Shown piece by piece: positions 1 to 24,673 of a DNA stretch of 64,000 nucleotides. A program made the translations under genes and the position numbers. The stretch spans positions 1-64,000 of the forward strand of contig JAJDBM010000012.1 in the NCBI GenBank assembly GCA_029261355.1. The letters run 5' to 3'. The stretch is from Nitrospirales bacterium (GTDB lineage: Bacteria > Nitrospirota > Nitrospiria > Nitrospirales > UBA8639). The notes below the pieces were generated by a model. It searched no databases. It had not been told where the DNA came from and saw only the letters and a program-made list of their open reading frames with translations. Numbering within the stretch: position 1 is the stretch's first letter; each line of letters begins with the position of its first letter.

Positions 1-630
1 TTGCCAGCCTGATGGAAGTGGGACTGAGGCCTTGCTGCCTTTACGGGTGATCCATTGGAATACTTTGTTCATTTCACTGCGTTCAGCAATATTCAATGTC
101 AAATTACAGTCTTGGGCCACGTAATCAAGGACTTGCTGGAATTTGCCATCTTTCCACAATTGTGGAGCCACTGATCCATCAATGTCCTCAGGTTTACTGA
201 GGCCAAGGGCCTTGCCGGCAGCATTGAGTCCGACGCCAAACCCTTTTTCGCAGAAGATATGAAACAGAATGTCAATATGGGTTCGTGCCAATTGCCGACA
301 CTCATCCCAACGATTGGATTCTTCAGCCAAGATGTCAAAGTCAAACCCGAGTCCGTTGAGTGTGACTATATTGTATCCGTTTTCTGTTTGAGTCTGGAGG
401 TAATCAACGAATGCAGAGAGGTCTTGTTGAGTCATCTGGGGGGCTGGAGTACCGTCTGGGTCACGAGAATAAAATAGTTGGGCCGATTCTTCTTGACTGG
501 CCCAGGTTGCGGCGCAACAAATACCCAATGGGCGATGGGCTAAGAGTTCACCGAAGTCTTCTGGAAGAATTTTAGCAGTTTCAATATCAAAAGCGAGATA
601 CTTGCGGTTGTACATTGATTGTTGTTCCAT
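1..630 (-). CDS. predicted DEDD-type 3'-5' exonuclease (3' end outside window)
   Basis: Open reading frame that runs off the left edge; 210 codons are visible. Seen: an N-terminal FDIET (D15, E17), NGLGFDFDIL near residue 92 with the second acidic residue, and YVAQD near residue 170 (Y170, D174). These match the acidic residues of DnaQ/PolB-like exonucleases, which remove nucleotides from 3' ends using two metal ions. It most resembles the stand-alone PolB-exonuclease-like proteins rather than a polymerase subunit. The start at 630 has GGAG about 9 bases upstream. An in-frame ATG at 645 would add five residues but has no ribosome site. It is divergent from the cobalamin operon. The biological substrate is unknown. 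Confidence 0.75.
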   Translation of the reverse strand, partial: MEQQSMYNRKYLAFDIETAKILPEDFGELLAHRPLGICCAATWASQEESAQLFYSRDPDGTPAPQMTQQDLSAFVDYLQTQTENGYNIVTLNGLGFDFDILAEESNRWDECRQLARTHIDILFHIFCEKGFGVGLNAAGKALGLSKPEDIDGSVAPQLWKDGKFQQVLDYVAQDCNLTLNIAERSEMNKVFQWITRKGSKASVPLPSGWQ

Positions 631-6288: not shown

Positions 6289-7001
6289 AGGTATGCATCC
6301 CTGCATTATGGCGAAGCTCATTTCGAGTTATCGACCGTACGCTTGTTGTTGCCTTTCCATCGTCTCGTCGTATCATTTCGTCTGCGGTTCATGGTGGGGG
6401 AATCGTGCGTGCAAATGGGATTCTTAATCATCAAGTTCTCACTAGAAAATCTCTTGCAGAGAGTGATCGTGCAAAGGATCCAAGTCGGTACCTTGGTGAG
6501 CTGGCCACACGAGTTGGAATATCTGGTCGATGTGTTGGATTAATGACTGCGGTGGATATGCGCTGTCTCGTCCTGAAACGTGTTGCATCAGAGGGGTTCT
6601 GGATCGAGGGATTCTTTACTGTTGGAGTGATGAACGCGGTTCGCGCGGGTGATCCAATAATGACGGAGCCTCCAAAGAATAGGAAGCCTCATATTGGCAC
6701 CATTAATATCATATTGATCATGAATGCACGCCTCAGCTCAGCAGCCATGGTCAATGCTGTGGGTGTGGCCACAGAGAGTAAAACGGCGATGTTGTTGGAT
6801 GAAGGCATCATGAATATGTCGGGAACCCATTTGGCGACGGGAACCGGGACGGACGTGGTGGCTGTTGTCTCAGGTCAAGGCCCCTCTTGTCGATATAGTG
6901 GCACGCATACCAAAATTGGTGAACTCATTGGTCTAGTCGTGTCTGAAGGTGTTAAGGAGGGACTGAAAAAGAACAGGAGGTGGAAAAAGAGGCAGAAATG
7001 A
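6285..7001 (+). CDS. cbiZ: adenosylcobinamide amidohydrolase
   Basis: 238 residues. CbiZ cleaves the aminopropanol arm from adenosylcobinamide (and pseudocobalamin-type corrinoids in some bacteria), giving adenosylcobyric acid that CbiB can use again. Seen: SSAVHGGG near residue 33, VGLMTAVDM near 84, TVGVMNAVRAG near 113, GTINIILIMNARLSSAAMVNA from about 141 (family core), and ATGTGTDVVAVV near 185. The C-terminus is very basic. The start ATG overlaps the cobD stop (ATGA). It is the last gene of the operon and faces the minus-strand CheY-like gene. CbiZ is common in archaea and sporadic in bacteria, so acquisition by transfer is possible. Confidence 0.88.
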   Translation: MKVCIPALWRSSFRVIDRTLVVAFPSSRRIISSAVHGGGIVRANGILNHQVLTRKSLAESDRAKDPSRYLGELATRVGISGRCVGLMTAVDMRCLVLKRVASEGFWIEGFFTVGVMNAVRAGDPIMTEPPKNRKPHIGTINIILIMNARLSSAAMVNAVGVATESKTAMLLDEGIMNMSGTHLATGTGTDVVAVVSGQGPSCRYSGTHTKIGELIGLVVSEGVKEGLKKNRRWKKRQK

Positions 7002-7158
7002 TTATTCGGCATAACTCGAAAATAAATAGCTGTCTTGTCTTGGCCGATGAACAGAATATGAGACGATGGGCCTGGTGGGGGGGGAGAAGCTGCGCTGCGC
7101 TCCATGCTATGTCATAAGGAACGGATTTTTAAACGACTGATTATGGTGAGCGAATCTC

Positions 7159-7524
7159 TTAGCGCGACAGTATTCGATCGATAGCTAAAGAAAGCTCTTC
7201 GAGCATAACTGGCTTACCTAAGATTCCTTTCACCTGCTCTTGAGATGCCAATTGTTTAACTTCTTCCGTAAGGTGTCCAGTCATAATCAGTACTGGAATT
7301 TTTTGAAAACTTGGATGTTCCTGCAGGGCAATCAAAAATTGAAAGCCATCCATGATCGGCATGTCGATATCGGTAATAATCAAGTGAATGTGATGTTCTT
7401 GTAATATGGTGAGGGCCTCAACTCCTTGAGTGGCTGTATAGCATGTGTATTTTTTATAGAGCAGATATTCTTGAAAAAAAAGTCGATTGGAATAGTCATC
7501 TTCCACGAGAAGGATCGTCCCCAT
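7159..7524 (-). CDS. single-domain CheY-like response regulator
   Basis: 121 residues forming only a receiver domain. Seen: the acidic pair in LLVEDDY (about residues 5-11), phospho-acceptor aspartate in IITDIDMP near residue 53, the threonine in MTGH near 81, and the lysine in LGKPV near 103. All residues needed for phosphorylation and switching are present. With no output domain it would act by protein contact, as CheY or a phosphorelay shuttle does. No histidine kinase is adjacent in intact form, so its partner is unknown. It is transcribed towards cbiZ. Confident for the domain, not for the pathway. Confidence 0.9.
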   Translation of the reverse strand: MGTILLVEDDYSNRLFFQEYLLYKKYTCYTATQGVEALTILQEHHIHLIITDIDMPIMDGFQFLIALQEHPSFQKIPVLIMTGHLTEEVKQLASQEQVKGILGKPVMLEELSLAIDRILSR

Positions 7525-8059
7525 TTATGTGTCTCCAGGTTATTTGATATATGGTGTATGGGTTTCAATCTAGTGAATTCACACGGACGTGCCATTTTCT
7601 GAAATTTCATCATTGTCAACTGAGGGGGGTAGGCAAGCATAATGGAGGCACCGAGTTGACTGGTGTTCTCGATGGTCTCTATGCCCTTCCCTTCTATTTT
7701 TGATTTTCTTTCGTTCTTCTGAATGTCCGAGCCCAGTCGTTTTTTTGACATGGTGATGCCATATAATTTTGAAATTTTTTCTGACTGATAGTTTCTCCAG
7801 GGGGGGGGTAATTGGAGAAGGGTGTGGTCAATGCTGTTGCTCGTGGATGTGGAGATGTATCCCTGTCCTGTTGTCATTCATATCGGGGCATTTTTCGTTT
7901 GTCTAAATTTGGTCTCTCGAGTAACGGACAACGTTACAATTTGAAGTTTCATAATACTCATGATAGGTTTAACAAAATTGGTCGTATTTATTAACTAGGC
8001 ACCTATTTGTCAGGGAGGAACCTTTTGGTGCAAATTATGGAAAGTAAAGGAGAAAGTTT
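7525..8059. other. gene-poor stretch with a nine-base G run
   Basis: No gene could be supported. A minus-strand open frame (7380-7877) crosses it and overlaps the CheY-like gene in another frame; its product has no recognisable motif, so it is not called. A run of nine G lies at 7800-7808 and another of eight or nine G at about 7076-7083. The stretch just before 8060 carries the ribosome site of the HxlR gene. Confidence 0.5.
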
Positions 8060-19175: not shown

Positions 19176-20210
19176 ATGGCGAACACAGCCATCATAGAAG
19201 AACCTGTTTGGGCCAGTTTGCCTGACGAGCAGTTGCTTGACCTGCGCCTCTGTGATCTTCATGTGCACATACAGGGAACCCCTCTCGCGCAATCGATAAA
19301 GCAATTGTGCAAGGAACTTGCGGGTCATGGCCTGAGGTTTCGTCCGCATTGTTGGTTGTCAGATGATTGGTATTGTCCTGATGGGATTCCCGGCATTGCG
19401 ATTCCCTTTTATATGAGTCATCCGCGATTGGCCAAATTAGAACTGAGTCAAATGCTTGAGGTGGAAGGGGGGACTCCTGACTGGTGCATGCGTATTCTCC
19501 GACATGAAGCTGGGCATGCCATAGAAAATGCCTATCGACTGCGACGACGGCATCGACGGCAACAGCTCTTTGGGAAAACCACGAACCCCTATCCTGATTG
19601 TTATTTGCCCAAGCCCTATAGCAAGCGCTTTGTCCTTCATTTAGATACCTGGTATGCACAAAGCCATCCTGACGAAGATTTTGCCGAAACATTTGCCGTG
19701 TGGCTAACGCCGGGTTCCGATTGGAAGGAACGCTATGACGGATGGCCGGCTATAAAGAAATTAGAATATATGGATAGCCTGATGACAGAGTTAGTGGGTG
19801 CTGTCCCGCCGGTAACGGCCAAGCAACGAATGGATCCGCTTCATACCTTGAAGAAAACACTTCGCGAGCATTATCAGCAGAAGCGAGAGTTGTATGGATT
19901 AAATTATCCCAATTTTTACGATCGAGATATGAGGCGGCTATTTTCCAATGCCAAGGAGTACAAAGGGCAGCCTGCTGCCGCAAGCTTTGTTCGTCGATTT
20001 CGAAAAGAAGTGCGTCGGAAGGTGGCTGACTGGACGGGAGAATATCAATATACGATTGATCAAGTTCTGAAAGACATCATTGAGTATTGTCGTGAGCGGC
20101 AGTTACGACTCACTGTTCCGGAGGAGCAAGCAAAACTAGATTTCACTATATTCGTCACCGTGCAAACCATGAACTATTTACATGGAGGGCGGCATCGAGT
20201 TGTCCTATGA
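19176..20210 (+). CDS. putative zinc-binding metallopeptidase
   Basis: 344 residues. The zinc site is RHEAGHAIENA near residue 110 (HExxH) with a downstream HPDEDFAETFAVWL near 165 that would give the third ligand. The N-terminal LRLCDLHVHIQGTPL, and RFRPHCWLSDDWYCPDG with GIAIPFYMSHPRL, match a conserved family annotated only as putative zinc metallopeptidase. No signal peptide, so cytoplasmic. Its stop overlaps the ATG of the following ATP-grasp gene (ATGA at 20207), so the two are translationally coupled. Pairing of a peptidase with a carboxylate-amine ligase suggests a shared small peptide or amino-acid conjugate as substrate; this is inference. Confidence 0.82.
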   Translation: MANTAIIEEPVWASLPDEQLLDLRLCDLHVHIQGTPLAQSIKQLCKELAGHGLRFRPHCWLSDDWYCPDGIPGIAIPFYMSHPRLAKLELSQMLEVEGGTPDWCMRILRHEAGHAIENAYRLRRRHRRQQLFGKTTNPYPDCYLPKPYSKRFVLHLDTWYAQSHPDEDFAETFAVWLTPGSDWKERYDGWPAIKKLEYMDSLMTELVGAVPPVTAKQRMDPLHTLKKTLREHYQQKRELYGLNYPNFYDRDMRRLFSNAKEYKGQPAAASFVRRFRKEVRRKVADWTGEYQYTIDQVLKDIIEYCRERQLRLTVPEEQAKLDFTIFVTVQTMNYLHGGRHRVVL

Positions 20211-21229
20211 AAAAGCTTCGAGTTCTCACACTCATGCATGAAGATTTAGTCCCTCCTGAGAATATGGATGGGGTCGATCTGGCCACGGTGGAATGGAAGA
20301 CGGAGTTTGATGTGATTTCCACGCTTCGTGAGATGGGACATGAGGTGAAGCCTGTTGGTGTGCGTGATGAGTTAGATGTGATTCGACATGCCGTCGATGA
20401 ATTTAAGCCGCATATTGCCTTTAATTTATTAGAAGAATTCAACGGGTTTGGTGGATTCGATCAAAACGTGGTTTCCTACCTTGAGCTGGTTGGGATGCCC
20501 TATACGGGGTGCAATCCACGTGGGTTGGTGCTCACACGCGACAAGGGGTGGTCTAAAAAAATCCTCACCTATCACGGGATTTTGTGTCCGGAGTTATCTG
20601 TTTTCCCACTCGGTCGTTCGGTTCGGTGGAGCAATGAGATTCCTTTTCCTGTGATTGTGAAGTCAATTTCTGAGGAAGCCTCTCTGGGTATCTCGCAAGC
20701 CTCCATCGTGGACGATGCTGAAAAATTAGAAGAGCGCGTCAAGTTTATCCACGAAAGTATTGGTAGCAGCGCAATTGTGGAGCAGTTTATTAAAGGCCGA
20801 GAGCTGTATGTTGGTGTGTTGGGGAATCAGCGATTACAAGTGTTCCCGGTCTGGGAATTGATTCTGAAAAACATGCCAAATGATGTTCATCAAGTGGCTA
20901 CGGAGCGAGTGAAATGGAGTGTGAGCTACCAAAAGAAGTATGGCATCACTTCACAGGCAGCCAAGGGATTAACCAAATCCATGACTAACCACATTCAGCA
21001 ATTAGCGAAAAAAGCCTACCGAATTTTGGGATTAAACGGATATGCTCGACTAGATTTTCGCCTGGATGAAGAGGGGAATGTCTATTTTTTAGAAGCCAAC
21101 CCCAATGCCCAAATTGCTTTCGGGGAAGATCTCACTGAATCAGCAGAAAGTGCGGGCTTGTCGTATGAGGGATTCTTGCAAAAGGTATTAAATCTTGGAA
21201 TGCGCTGGAAGCCTGATGATGTTCGATAA
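20207..21229 (+). CDS. ATP-grasp ligase related to D-alanine--D-alanine ligase
   Basis: 340 residues. Seen: N-terminal VLTLMHEDLVPPENM; LLEEFNGFGGFDQNVVSYLE near residue 75; MPYTGCNPRGLVLTRDKGWSK near 96, where Ddl proteins have Y-G and the D-K pair; FPVIVKSISEEASLGIS near 147 (ATP-binding lysine); and a C-terminal ARLDFR with FLEANPNAQIAF near 280-300 (magnesium ligands E and N). The Ddl substrate loop is poorly matched, so it probably links other substrates than D-alanine. It is coupled to the metallopeptidase gene. A second, truncated copy of its 3' end lies at 23235-23399. Confidence 0.83.
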   Translation: MKKLRVLTLMHEDLVPPENMDGVDLATVEWKTEFDVISTLREMGHEVKPVGVRDELDVIRHAVDEFKPHIAFNLLEEFNGFGGFDQNVVSYLELVGMPYTGCNPRGLVLTRDKGWSKKILTYHGILCPELSVFPLGRSVRWSNEIPFPVIVKSISEEASLGISQASIVDDAEKLEERVKFIHESIGSSAIVEQFIKGRELYVGVLGNQRLQVFPVWELILKNMPNDVHQVATERVKWSVSYQKKYGITSQAAKGLTKSMTNHIQQLAKKAYRILGLNGYARLDFRLDEEGNVYFLEANPNAQIAFGEDLTESAESAGLSYEGFLQKVLNLGMRWKPDDVR

Positions 21230-21496: not shown

Positions 21497-21844
21497 ATGT
21501 CTAAGAAGAACTATCTCTGTATCCAGCGAAGCGAGTCGGGGAGTTGTGACCAAGGGGAGGGACCATCGCCTGCGCAAATGGAGGAAATGTACACCAAATT
21601 CAATGCCTGGAAAGAGAAATTTCGGGCTAATCTCCACGACCTTGGTGGAAAACTCGGAGGGGGGAAAATTGTGACCTCAGAAAGTACAACTGATGGGCCT
21701 TTCGTCGAAGCCAAGGAAATCATTGGTGGCTATATGATTGTCTCTGCGGACAGTCTAGAAGAGGCGCTAGAGGTAGCCCGACAAAGTCCCGGCGTCTGGA
21801 TGCCTGGGTCAAGTATTGAAGTGAGAGAGATCAGTACGCCTTGA
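21497..21844 (+). CDS. DGPF/YCII-domain protein partnered with ECF42 sigma factor
   Basis: 115 residues. Contains TTDGPFVEAKEIIGGYMIVSA near residue 62, the DGPF motif that names the family, and VWMPGSSIEVREI at the C-terminus. The N-terminus (YLCIQRSES) and a long central helix (EEMYTKFNAWKEKF) are typical. AAAGGA lies about 8 bases before the ATG. The stop overlaps the TTG start of the sigma factor gene (TTGA), so the two are coupled. DGPF proteins are the conserved partners of ECF42 factors; how they work is not established. Confidence 0.88.
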   Translation: MSKKNYLCIQRSESGSCDQGEGPSPAQMEEMYTKFNAWKEKFRANLHDLGGKLGGGKIVTSESTTDGPFVEAKEIIGGYMIVSADSLEEALEVARQSPGVWMPGSSIEVREISTP

Positions 21845-23115
21845 CGACGCCCAGACTCGTCGAGCACTTCTTTCGACACGAATACGGCAGGCTTGTTGCC
21901 ATATTATCTCGACGAGTAGGCGTTGGAAATCTTGAGGCGGTTGAGGACGCCGTTCAGTCCGCCTTGATGAAAGGGCTTGAGGCGTGGGTGATGACGGGTG
22001 TACCGGATAATCCGTCGGGCTGGCTCTTTCGGGTGGCGCACAATAATCTGATGAGTGAGTTGCGTCAGCATACGGGCCGCAGTCGTATTTTAGAGCAACA
22101 TACCAACGATGCCATCAATACTCCGGAGGACGATCCGGAGTGTTTGATGGCGGGGGAAGTGCAGGACGACCTGCTACGAATGTTATTTGTGTGCTGTGAC
22201 GACACGATCTCTGTGGAATCACAGTTAGTCTTGGCCTTGAAGACCCTCTGTGGATTCAACATTCGAGAGATTGCGCTTCGCTTGTTTACCAGCGAAGCCA
22301 ATGTCTACAAGCGCCTTAGTCGAGCCAGAAACCGTTTGCGAGAACATCCCACTCTCTTCGAAGAATGTTCTGGCGAGGATTATTCCACTCGACTCCCAGC
22401 AGTACACAAAATCCTCTACCTCCTTTTCACGGAGGGCCACTTTTCGTCCCATACAGAAATGGCTATTCGCCGAGAGCTGTGTGACGAAGCCATACGGTTG
22501 GCCACTATTTTAGCCGAACATTCGGTAGCGCAGGTTCCGGAAACGTTTGCCCTGTTGGCTTTGATGCATCTGAACGTGGCACGTTTAACCGCTCGTCAGG
22601 ACGGTTCCGGTGGTTTACTTCTATTGGAGGAGCAGGATCGCGGGCTGTGGAATTGTCGGGATATTCAAGTTGGAATGGAGTGGCTAACTCGATGCGCAGA
22701 AGGCGATAGCTTTTCCCGATATCACGCAGAGGCGGGGATTGCAGCAGAACATTGTCTTGCCCCTTCGTTTCAGGAAACTCGTTGGGATCGGATCGTGGAA
22801 TGTTATGAATTACTCGAGCAGATCGCCGCTTCCCCTATACATCAGCTGAACCGTGCGGTTGCCATGGCAGAGTGGCAAGGCCCTGCCTCGGGACTCGCTA
22901 TTCTTCAGGGTTTCGAGCCATCCACCTGGTTAGCGAAGTCTTTCCAGAGTGCCGCGGTATTCGCTGATTTGCATCGGCGCTGTGGGAACACCGAGAAGGC
23001 CAAATGTTATCGGGATAAAGCGATTAATTTGGCTCCCTCTTTGCCAGTCAAAGAGCTGGTAATGCGACGACTTGATGGAGAAAGTGGAATTCGCATTAAG
23101 GGAGATGTTGATTAG
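21841..23115 (+). CDS. ECF42-type RNA polymerase sigma factor with C-terminal extension
   Basis: 424 residues starting with TTG at 21841, overlapping the upstream stop. The N-terminal 170 residues hold the sigma regions: RLVAILSRRVG and EDAVQSALMKGLEAW (region 2.1-2.2), PSGWLFRVAHNNLMSELR (region 2.3-2.4), and FNIREIALRLFTSEANVYKR near 143 (region 4.2 helix-turn-helix). The remaining about 240 residues, with the motif YLLFTEGH, HRAVAM-like NRAVAMAEWQGP and a TPR-like helical end, replace an anti-sigma factor and are the mark of the ECF42 group. No anti-sigma gene is present. Its regulon probably begins with its own operon. Confidence 0.9.
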   Translation: MTTPRLVEHFFRHEYGRLVAILSRRVGVGNLEAVEDAVQSALMKGLEAWVMTGVPDNPSGWLFRVAHNNLMSELRQHTGRSRILEQHTNDAINTPEDDPECLMAGEVQDDLLRMLFVCCDDTISVESQLVLALKTLCGFNIREIALRLFTSEANVYKRLSRARNRLREHPTLFEECSGEDYSTRLPAVHKILYLLFTEGHFSSHTEMAIRRELCDEAIRLATILAEHSVAQVPETFALLALMHLNVARLTARQDGSGGLLLLEEQDRGLWNCRDIQVGMEWLTRCAEGDSFSRYHAEAGIAAEHCLAPSFQETRWDRIVECYELLEQIAASPIHQLNRAVAMAEWQGPASGLAILQGFEPSTWLAKSFQSAAVFADLHRRCGNTEKAKCYRDKAINLAPSLPVKELVMRRLDGESGIRIKGDVD

Positions 23116-23234
23116 GGGTTAGGGTAAGGAGTGATTACCTCATTCACAGAAACTGAATCAGAAACCTTTGAAAATTCTTCGGTTAGCATTCAGAAGCTTA
23201 TTCCGGCTTTACATATCGTTTGGATTAATTTCTT

Positions 23235-23399
23235 AATGAAGAGGGCCGCGTCTATTTCTTAGAATCCAACCCCAATGCCAAAATTCCTTTTGCGGAGGAT
23301 CTCACTGAATCAGCAGAAAGTGGGGGCTTGTCGTATGAGGGATTCTTGCAAAAGGTATTGAATCTTGGAATGCGCTGGAAGCCTGATGATGTTCGGTAG
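23235..23399 (+). pseudogene. truncated second copy of ATP-grasp ligase 3' end
   Basis: An open frame of 54 codons ends in TAG at 23397 and reads EEGRVYFLESNPNAKIPF, then EDLTESAESGGLSYEGFLQK, then MRWKPDDVR. It matches the last 54 codons of the intact gene at 20207-21229 almost residue for residue. The final roughly 120 bases differ at only a few positions, while the first part is more diverged. Weak similarity may extend up to about 23211. The rest of the gene is missing. It is either the tail of a lost paralogue next to the first copy or a partial duplication. Confidence 0.88.
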
Positions 23400-23555: not shown

Positions 23556-24140
23556 TTATATTTCTCCGGTAGCTGATTCCCCGACCAAGTTCTCTAAATT
23601 TTCTCGGTATGTCGATATTGTCCGAAACATTTCTTGATAGGTGTCAGGAACTCTCCTTGCTGCTTGATCTATTAGAGAGTTTATAATCGCCACCATATCA
23701 GAATGAAGTGGATAGGTTCCTCCTGAATTTTCTGAGGTTTCAGTAGGATAGCGCAATTTGAATTTCGTTCCTGTTCTCAGGTCCTGATAATAAGAATGAT
23801 TCAGGTGAACAATCATGGCCTGTAACCGATCCTCCAAACGGAAACCATTATTCTCAATAATTTTGTAGAGTTTGACTAAGTCGTGACTATTTGAAGGCTT
23901 TGCTGAAACTGATGCAATACATGCTTTCATGGAGCATTCAATGGCATGCCCAGTCAATTGTAGCTGAGGGTTTATGAGGTGATGTCTCTTTTTCTCTAAA
24001 ATCGATGCAGCTGCGAGAAACTCTATCGCGATGTGTGCCAATTCATAAGCCTGCAATTCTTTTGGAATGGAAAATGACGGTTCACTAGTAAATTCATAGA
24101 GTTTCTTGATTTTGTTCTGAGTATTTTCAATTTTACTCAT
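23556..24140 (-). CDS. HEPN-like helical protein, function unknown
   Basis: 194 residues, almost entirely helical. The segment QLTGHAIECSMKACI near residue 60 followed by SNSHDLVKLYKII near 82 resembles HEPN-type proteins, which often show a conserved helix and an SHDL-like turn. The classic R-x4-6-H RNase motif is not clear, so an RNase or toxin role cannot be claimed. No antitoxin or nucleotidyltransferase partner is adjacent. It is a single minus-strand gene between the ATP-grasp remnant and the DsrE gene. The family resemblance is moderate. Confidence 0.6.
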   Translation of the reverse strand: MSKIENTQNKIKKLYEFTSEPSFSIPKELQAYELAHIAIEFLAAASILEKKRHHLINPQLQLTGHAIECSMKACIASVSAKPSNSHDLVKLYKIIENNGFRLEDRLQAMIVHLNHSYYQDLRTGTKFKLRYPTETSENSGGTYPLHSDMVAIINSLIDQAARRVPDTYQEMFRTISTYRENLENLVGESATGEI

Positions 24141-24322: not shown

Positions 24323-24673
24323 CTAGTTAAATGCCAAAAACCGGTCGCAGCCTGTGATGATGTTGGAGAGGACGACTAAACCGCAGAAGGTGACTTCTTT
24401 GGGATGTCCTTCCGTCGAGATTTTGTGTTGTTGGCAGCCATAGGCACAGACGAAGAATTTGGCGCCGGAGGAGGCGAGTTCTACGAGGAGTGGGTTTTGG
24501 AGGTTTTTGACGCCTTCGTCAATCAAGTAGAGGTAGACATCCACGCCTGAGCGAAGGGCTTCTTCGCCAAGCTTCGTCACTGTTTCAGCATTAGGGTTTT
24601 CGGGGGGAGTCGACAGTAAAATGCCGAGTTTTTTACCTTTGAGGGACAAATCAGTTGGGATGGGCAGTGACAT
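24323..24673 (-). CDS. DsrE/DsrF-family sulfur-relay-like protein
   Basis: 116 residues with the DsrE fold: strand KLGILLSTPPENPNAETV near residue 14, GVDVYLYLIDEGVKNL near 43, ELASSGAKFFVCAYGCQQH near 65 with cysteines C74 and C78, and a C-terminal FCGLVVLSNIITGCDRFLAF. DsrE proteins carry sulfur on a conserved cysteine or serve as small redox carriers. There is no tusBCD or dsr operon here. Divergent from moaC, so a sulfur-transfer role linked to molybdopterin is tempting but unproved. Confidence 0.75.
   Translation of the reverse strand: MSLPIPTDLSLKGKKLGILLSTPPENPNAETVTKLGEEALRSGVDVYLYLIDEGVKNLQNPLLVELASSGAKFFVCAYGCQQHKISTEGHPKEVTFCGLVVLSNIITGCDRFLAFN

Follow-up and report, generated by a model that had tools for sequence, protein, structure and literature searches.

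The locus raises the question of why the end of an intact ligase gene recurs in the same orientation a short way downstream, and how the second copy came to lie there. In the window (the whole stretch of 64,000 nucleotides analysed, from a Nitrospirales bacterium), the 3′ end of an ATP-grasp ligase gene (21066-21228) and positions 23236-23398 form a gapless direct repeat of 163 nt with 91% identity and a spacing of 2170 nt. The repeat is found in these two places only in the genome (BLAST, E 2.7e-61), which confirms what the sequence-only reading had noted, namely that the last 54 codons of the ligase reappear about 2.2 kb downstream with the stop preserved. It had placed the start of the copy at 23211, a position that falls in a doubtful 5′ stretch; the firm repeat begins at 23236. 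With the third base of the stop included, the native tail (21066-21229, plus strand, delimited by the repeat and the alignment) and the copied tail (23236-23399, plus strand, delimited by the repeat, BLAST, the alignment and a congener profile) differ at 15 of 164 positions and are 90.9% alike base by base. The reading frame and the stop are retained in the copy, with TAA in the native gene and TAG in the copy. Among direct repeats within single stretches of a 312-kb sample of this genome (window included, 4 kb counted twice), this is the sole case in which an open reading frame (ORF) has its stop end repeated at a place not covered by an ORF of at least 90 codons. Elsewhere in the same genome, two adjoining frames of 212 and 203 codons (L098:14464-17044) carry 86-97% repeats at their flanks and 3′ parts and may represent a tandem duplication.

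The intact ligase (20207-21229, plus strand; 340 aa, PF07478) resembles D-Ala-D-Ala ligases, is the source of the repeated tail and has full-length relatives at 53-85% identity. Its conserved upstream partner, a gene for a putative zinc metallopeptidase (Peptidase_Mx, PF15887; 19176-20210, plus strand), adjoins the ligase in all 13 relative loci searched. Between the two tails lie a YCII-domain gene (21497-21844, plus strand; PF03795), unmatched in 13 relative loci around the ligase, and a gene for an ECF42-like sigma factor with a long C-terminal extension (21841-23115, plus strand; Sigma70_r2, Sigma70_r4_2 and DUF6596) that overlaps the YCII stop. Sigma regions 2 and 4, the long extension and the adjacent YCII gene together give the ECF42 and YCII architecture, as judged by Pfam domains; a YCII neighbourhood is described for ECF42 sigma factors in the accessible part of PMC8999054. 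The best match to the sigma factor reached 35% among 58 relatives and 36% among 294 other genomes of the phylum, several of which are common to both sets, and no donor of the cargo was found there. On plasmids, identity was below 60% in all 249 records with a match (39% at best among the matches listed), and the cargo DNA matched none. To the right of the copied tail, a lineage-specific stretch holds a HEPN-like orphan gene (23556-24140, minus strand; PF05168 below cut-off) with no match in the 58 relatives, followed by a convergent DsrE-family gene (24323-24673, minus strand; PF02635) as the right-hand junction neighbour. PADLOC gave no match for the YCII, sigma or HEPN-like proteins. No tyrosine integrase (PF00589) was detected on the contig (C12) in a search limited to that family.

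The main finding is that the copied tail is dead. Four in-frame stops lie just upstream of it (23154, 23169, 23184 and 23226). Six amino acids differ between the native and the copied tail, and the copy has lost constraint, because five of these six changes alter residues that the native gene has in common with all four congeners. Without a start-to-stop frame of the ligase gene, with in-frame stops and with conserved residues changed, the sequence has the properties of a pseudogene fragment. Nothing suggests a present-day role for it; taken alone, it is a minor pseudogene and should not receive a gene annotation. Synonymous differences between the copies are relatively many (pS 0.206 versus pN 0.056, Fisher p 0.013). 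We dropped the idea of two functional alleles based on this excess, since P = 0.19 under a model in which one branch is constrained and the other dead.

The sequence immediately 5′ of the copied tail, which contains the four stops, may be a strongly decayed continuation of the ligase fragment (23145-23235, plus strand), and the evidence for its homology to the ligase is mixed. Compared with the native gene, extension 5′ of 23236 did not exceed chance (local scores matched by 364 of 500 and 242 of 500 shuffles), and anchored ungapped identity gave p values of 0.10, 0.02, 0.14, 0.44 and 0.72 at 15, 21, 30, 45 and 60 nt. With a profile that included the four congeners, the nhmmer score rose from 115.6 to 122.8 bits, a gain of 7.2 bits that was matched by one of 400 shuffles and four of 800 random window segments, and the match of the fragment to the four-congener profile extends 5′ to 23170. 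Anchored gapped scores against single genes were 27, 27, 25 and 11 for the congeners and 9 for the native ligase (the best matched by two of 144 random segments); a second scoring scheme gave 57, 56, 53 and 48 for the congeners and 44 for the native ligase (matched by three of 144). The 5′ stretch thus seems to fit the congeners better than the native ligase, which would be unexpected had the fragment been copied from that gene. Downstream of the copied stop, no homology was detected beyond chance (equalled by 20 of 200 shuffles and 33 of 200 Markov resamples). A candidate homology past the stop had been as good in only one of 200 random window segments, a control that was not matched in composition, and was dropped in view of the composition-matched nulls.

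The duplication, or an exchange with a sister lineage, is younger than the split from the four congeners (G001 to G004) and lineage-specific, because the copies are 90.9% alike yet only 64.6-71.3% identical to these congeners. Both copies share 22 states that are absent from all four congeners, six of them in the 5′ 62 positions and 16 in the 3′ 102 positions. Identity between window and congeners is 70.7% for the functional tail and 76.0% for the gene body, and that among congeners is 75.1% and 80.6%, respectively. The functional tail is therefore not phylogenetically odd compared with the gene body, and no distant donor tail is seen in it, although a donor from a sister lineage would look alike.

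We found the ligase and the DsrE gene convergent on 14 distinct related contigs. They are separated by about 380 nt in congener G001 and about 290 nt in G004, where the gene end is uninterrupted and both the YCII/sigma pair and the fragment are absent; on contig L050 their stops lie 4 nt apart. The gap elsewhere ranges from 1.5 to 4.7 kb with an ORF content that varies by lineage (among the matches listed), and in the window it measures 3.1 kb and holds the YCII gene, the sigma factor, the fragment and the HEPN-like orphan. The DsrE gene is absent from the downstream DNA examined of congeners G002 and G003, which are thus uninformative on the junction. The intergenic DNA of G001 and G004 showed no match beyond chance to three non-coding stretches of the window (27 to 205 of 300 shuffles were as good), and none of the relatives examined is a genome close to the window with the state just before this insertion. 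Using tblastn, a second ligase was found in none of 26 distinct related loci, some on contigs with little downstream DNA; the set comprised 32 loci on these 26 contigs, six having been fetched twice, and included one ligase in two pieces (L058) and two loci with a partial gene only (L063 and L064). A relative with the fragment and no insertion, which would have spoken against the sequence-only reading, was not seen, nor was one with two ligases and no pair, which would have supported it. Of tails repeated on the 14 related junction contigs, we detected no second ligase tail, one DsrE tail and one tail of a cyclase gene.

The junction between ligase and DsrE varies in gene content between lineages, with independent tail scars in two other genomes. 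In G012 (L038), 105-nt direct repeats (7428-7532 and 6747-6851; 84 of 105 positions identical, 80%) flank a 576-nt insert (6852-7427) at the 3′ end of a TetR/squalene-hopene-cyclase gene, and the repeated stretch spans the stop of this 841-aa gene. In G022 (L053), which is collinear with G012 to either side, the 105-nt stretch occurs once (2802-2906), and this represents the uninterrupted state. The outer G012 copy matches G022 at 93 of 105 positions and the inner at 84; at the 21 sites where the copies differ, G022 sides with the outer copy at 14 and with the inner at five, and L051 at 11 and eight. The polarity of the copies is only suggestive, as other members of the genus do not favour the outer copy consistently. 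Relatives of the 576-nt insert are present elsewhere in G018 and G030 without such a tail alongside. In G024 (L041), the DsrE tail recurs over its last 73 nt at 86% identity with the stop lost; a YciB/IspA-family gene separates the copies, and a phosphatase-like gene follows the tail copy. The latter is accompanied by a 235-nt repeat (82%), and the partial duplication spans L041:8105-10776. As in the window, a gene tail is repeated in direct orientation beyond inserted DNA in both genomes, but the tails are those of the TetR/cyclase gene and of DsrE and not of the ligase, and both duplications extend beyond the stop of the gene. The 841-aa frame in G012 (L038:7481-10006, minus strand) may itself be unusual: it fuses a TetR-type regulator (TetR_N and TetR_C_28) with a complete squalene-hopene cyclase (both N and C domains), and frames of equal length at the corresponding place in L037, L039 and L040 suggest that this fusion is conserved.

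The fragment is probably a non-functional remnant of the ligase 3′ end that marks the right-hand border of a lineage-specific YCII/ECF42-like insertion of about 2.2 kb, which arose by recombination, a reading that we hold with moderate confidence. The setting would be a junction of rapid gene turnover between the convergent and conserved ligase and DsrE genes. The insert would have entered by recombination inside the 3′ end of the ligase. The incoming DNA would have brought along a ligase tail from this lineage or a sister lineage, and the outcome would be a whole ligase gene to the left of the insert and, to its right, a tail cut off from its gene and decaying. We infer both that insertion and duplication in the window were one event and that the route was recombination; homologous recombination is the likelier route because the contig lacks a tyrosine integrase. 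The sequence-only reading had offered two origins for the fragment, a tandem paralogue mostly deleted when the pair came in, or arrival of the pair by recombination that duplicated the end of its target. The latter fits best, though it is unproven, because none of the 26 loci has a second ligase, the G001 and G004 junctions lack both pair and fragment, and G012 and G024 bear independent tail duplications; the sigma factor without a close homologue is also in line with it. If correct, the scar identifies the YCII/sigma pair as having been gained in this lineage and reveals the gene end at which it was joined.

The deleted-paralogue origin is comparatively unsupported by the related loci, but a short-lived duplicate confined to this species is conceivable, and we regard as unlikely, while still worth serious consideration, that the ligase, or its 3′ part, was duplicated in tandem in this species and that most of the second copy was lost or gave way to incoming accessory genes, so that its tail survived. 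The possible 5′ extension would mean that the copy was once longer, and the G024 duplication at the corresponding junction runs past the stop; yet downstream sequence would often be included in a tandem duplication, and the window has no homology past the stop. The relatively many synonymous differences, which would suit two once-functional copies, are also expected from one constrained and one dead branch. An assembly artefact, in which two strain variants had been fused into a single contig of the draft genome (74 contigs), is improbable, given that both copies lie inside a 72-kb contig in different surrounding sequence, that in-frame stops precede the copy and that conserved residues are altered in it. 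Retention of the repeated tail because it still does something, such as acting as a recombination site or transcript signal, is least credible of all. Frame and stop are kept, and on the minus strand each copy has a promoter-like match across its end (21255-21226 and 23413-23386), in a region with 10 such matches versus 5.4 expected, but consensus matches of this quality (9 of 12) are weak evidence. Moreover, a terminator-like site is absent at both copies, conserved residues are lost in the copy, and the sample of this genome holds no other such case.

Divergence along the repeat bears on a further process that could accompany either origin. The 5′ part had been described as more diverged than a near-identical 3′ part, and the best split, at 21127, does leave 11 differences in the 5′ 62 nt and four in the 3′ 102 nt (Fisher p 0.004 when the choice of split is not corrected for). 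The gradient is only marginal, because an equally strong split occurred in 286 of 5000 permutations (p ~0.06) and four of the 11 differences form one adjacent block. Gene conversion from the intact ligase, later re-homogenising the 3′ part of the fragment, would explain this inequality, and the gradient would be steeper still if the stretch at about 23145-23235 is homologous. Considering the corrected p value, the single block and a longest identical run between the tails of 36 nt, which is unremarkable (p 0.30), such conversion is allowed, as had been proposed, but not required, and we consider it rather doubtful.

Comparable scars have been described before, as at the e14 prophage site of Escherichia coli K-12, where, in the accessible part of PMC11148124, the displaced icd 3′ end (icdC) measures 165 bp with 12 exchanges and 54 C-terminal residues. 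As preserved in that account, the order is that of the window, with an intact gene, an insert and a direct-repeat copy of the last 54 codons with stop (164 bp and 15 differences in the window); the likeness in size is probably chance. In contrast to the e14 prophage, the window insert is about 2.2 kb long, its two genes encode a YCII protein and a sigma factor and not a site-specific recombinase, no tyrosine integrase was detected on its contig, and the window copy has in-frame stops just upstream. Tail and body of the window ligase are similarly placed relative to the congeners, which would also hold if the insert had brought in its tail from a sister lineage.

Tail scars are present at three of 15 junctions, formed by the ligase in the window, the cyclase gene in G012 and DsrE in G024. 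One junction has thus seen three independent gene gains with tail duplication, one of them with the uninterrupted state known. It is tempting to speculate, with considerable doubt, that the ligase/DsrE junction of this family repeatedly captures small integrase-free DNA via recombination in the flanking 3′ ends and that the tails of 70-160 nt are its scars. If true, tail scars would make integrase-free gene capture readable and countable. In hotspots without recognizable mobile elements, homologous recombination is frequent at the flanking core genes, according to the accessible part of Oliveira et al. 2017 (PMC5635113). The ligase/DsrE junction resembles the gene-turnover hotspots between core genes in that account, many of which lack mobile elements, in its conserved flanks and lineage-varying accessory genes, a likeness judged by layout. 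Two further features were noted near the ligase of relatives. In G053, direct repeats of 84 nt (96%) and 223 nt (70%) lie just downstream of the ligase without a ligase-tail copy (L044:5846-6187), and near the ligase of congener G003 (NPIRA02, also L046) there is a long array (L033:7201-10955) that resembles a CRISPR and repeats about every 61 bp.
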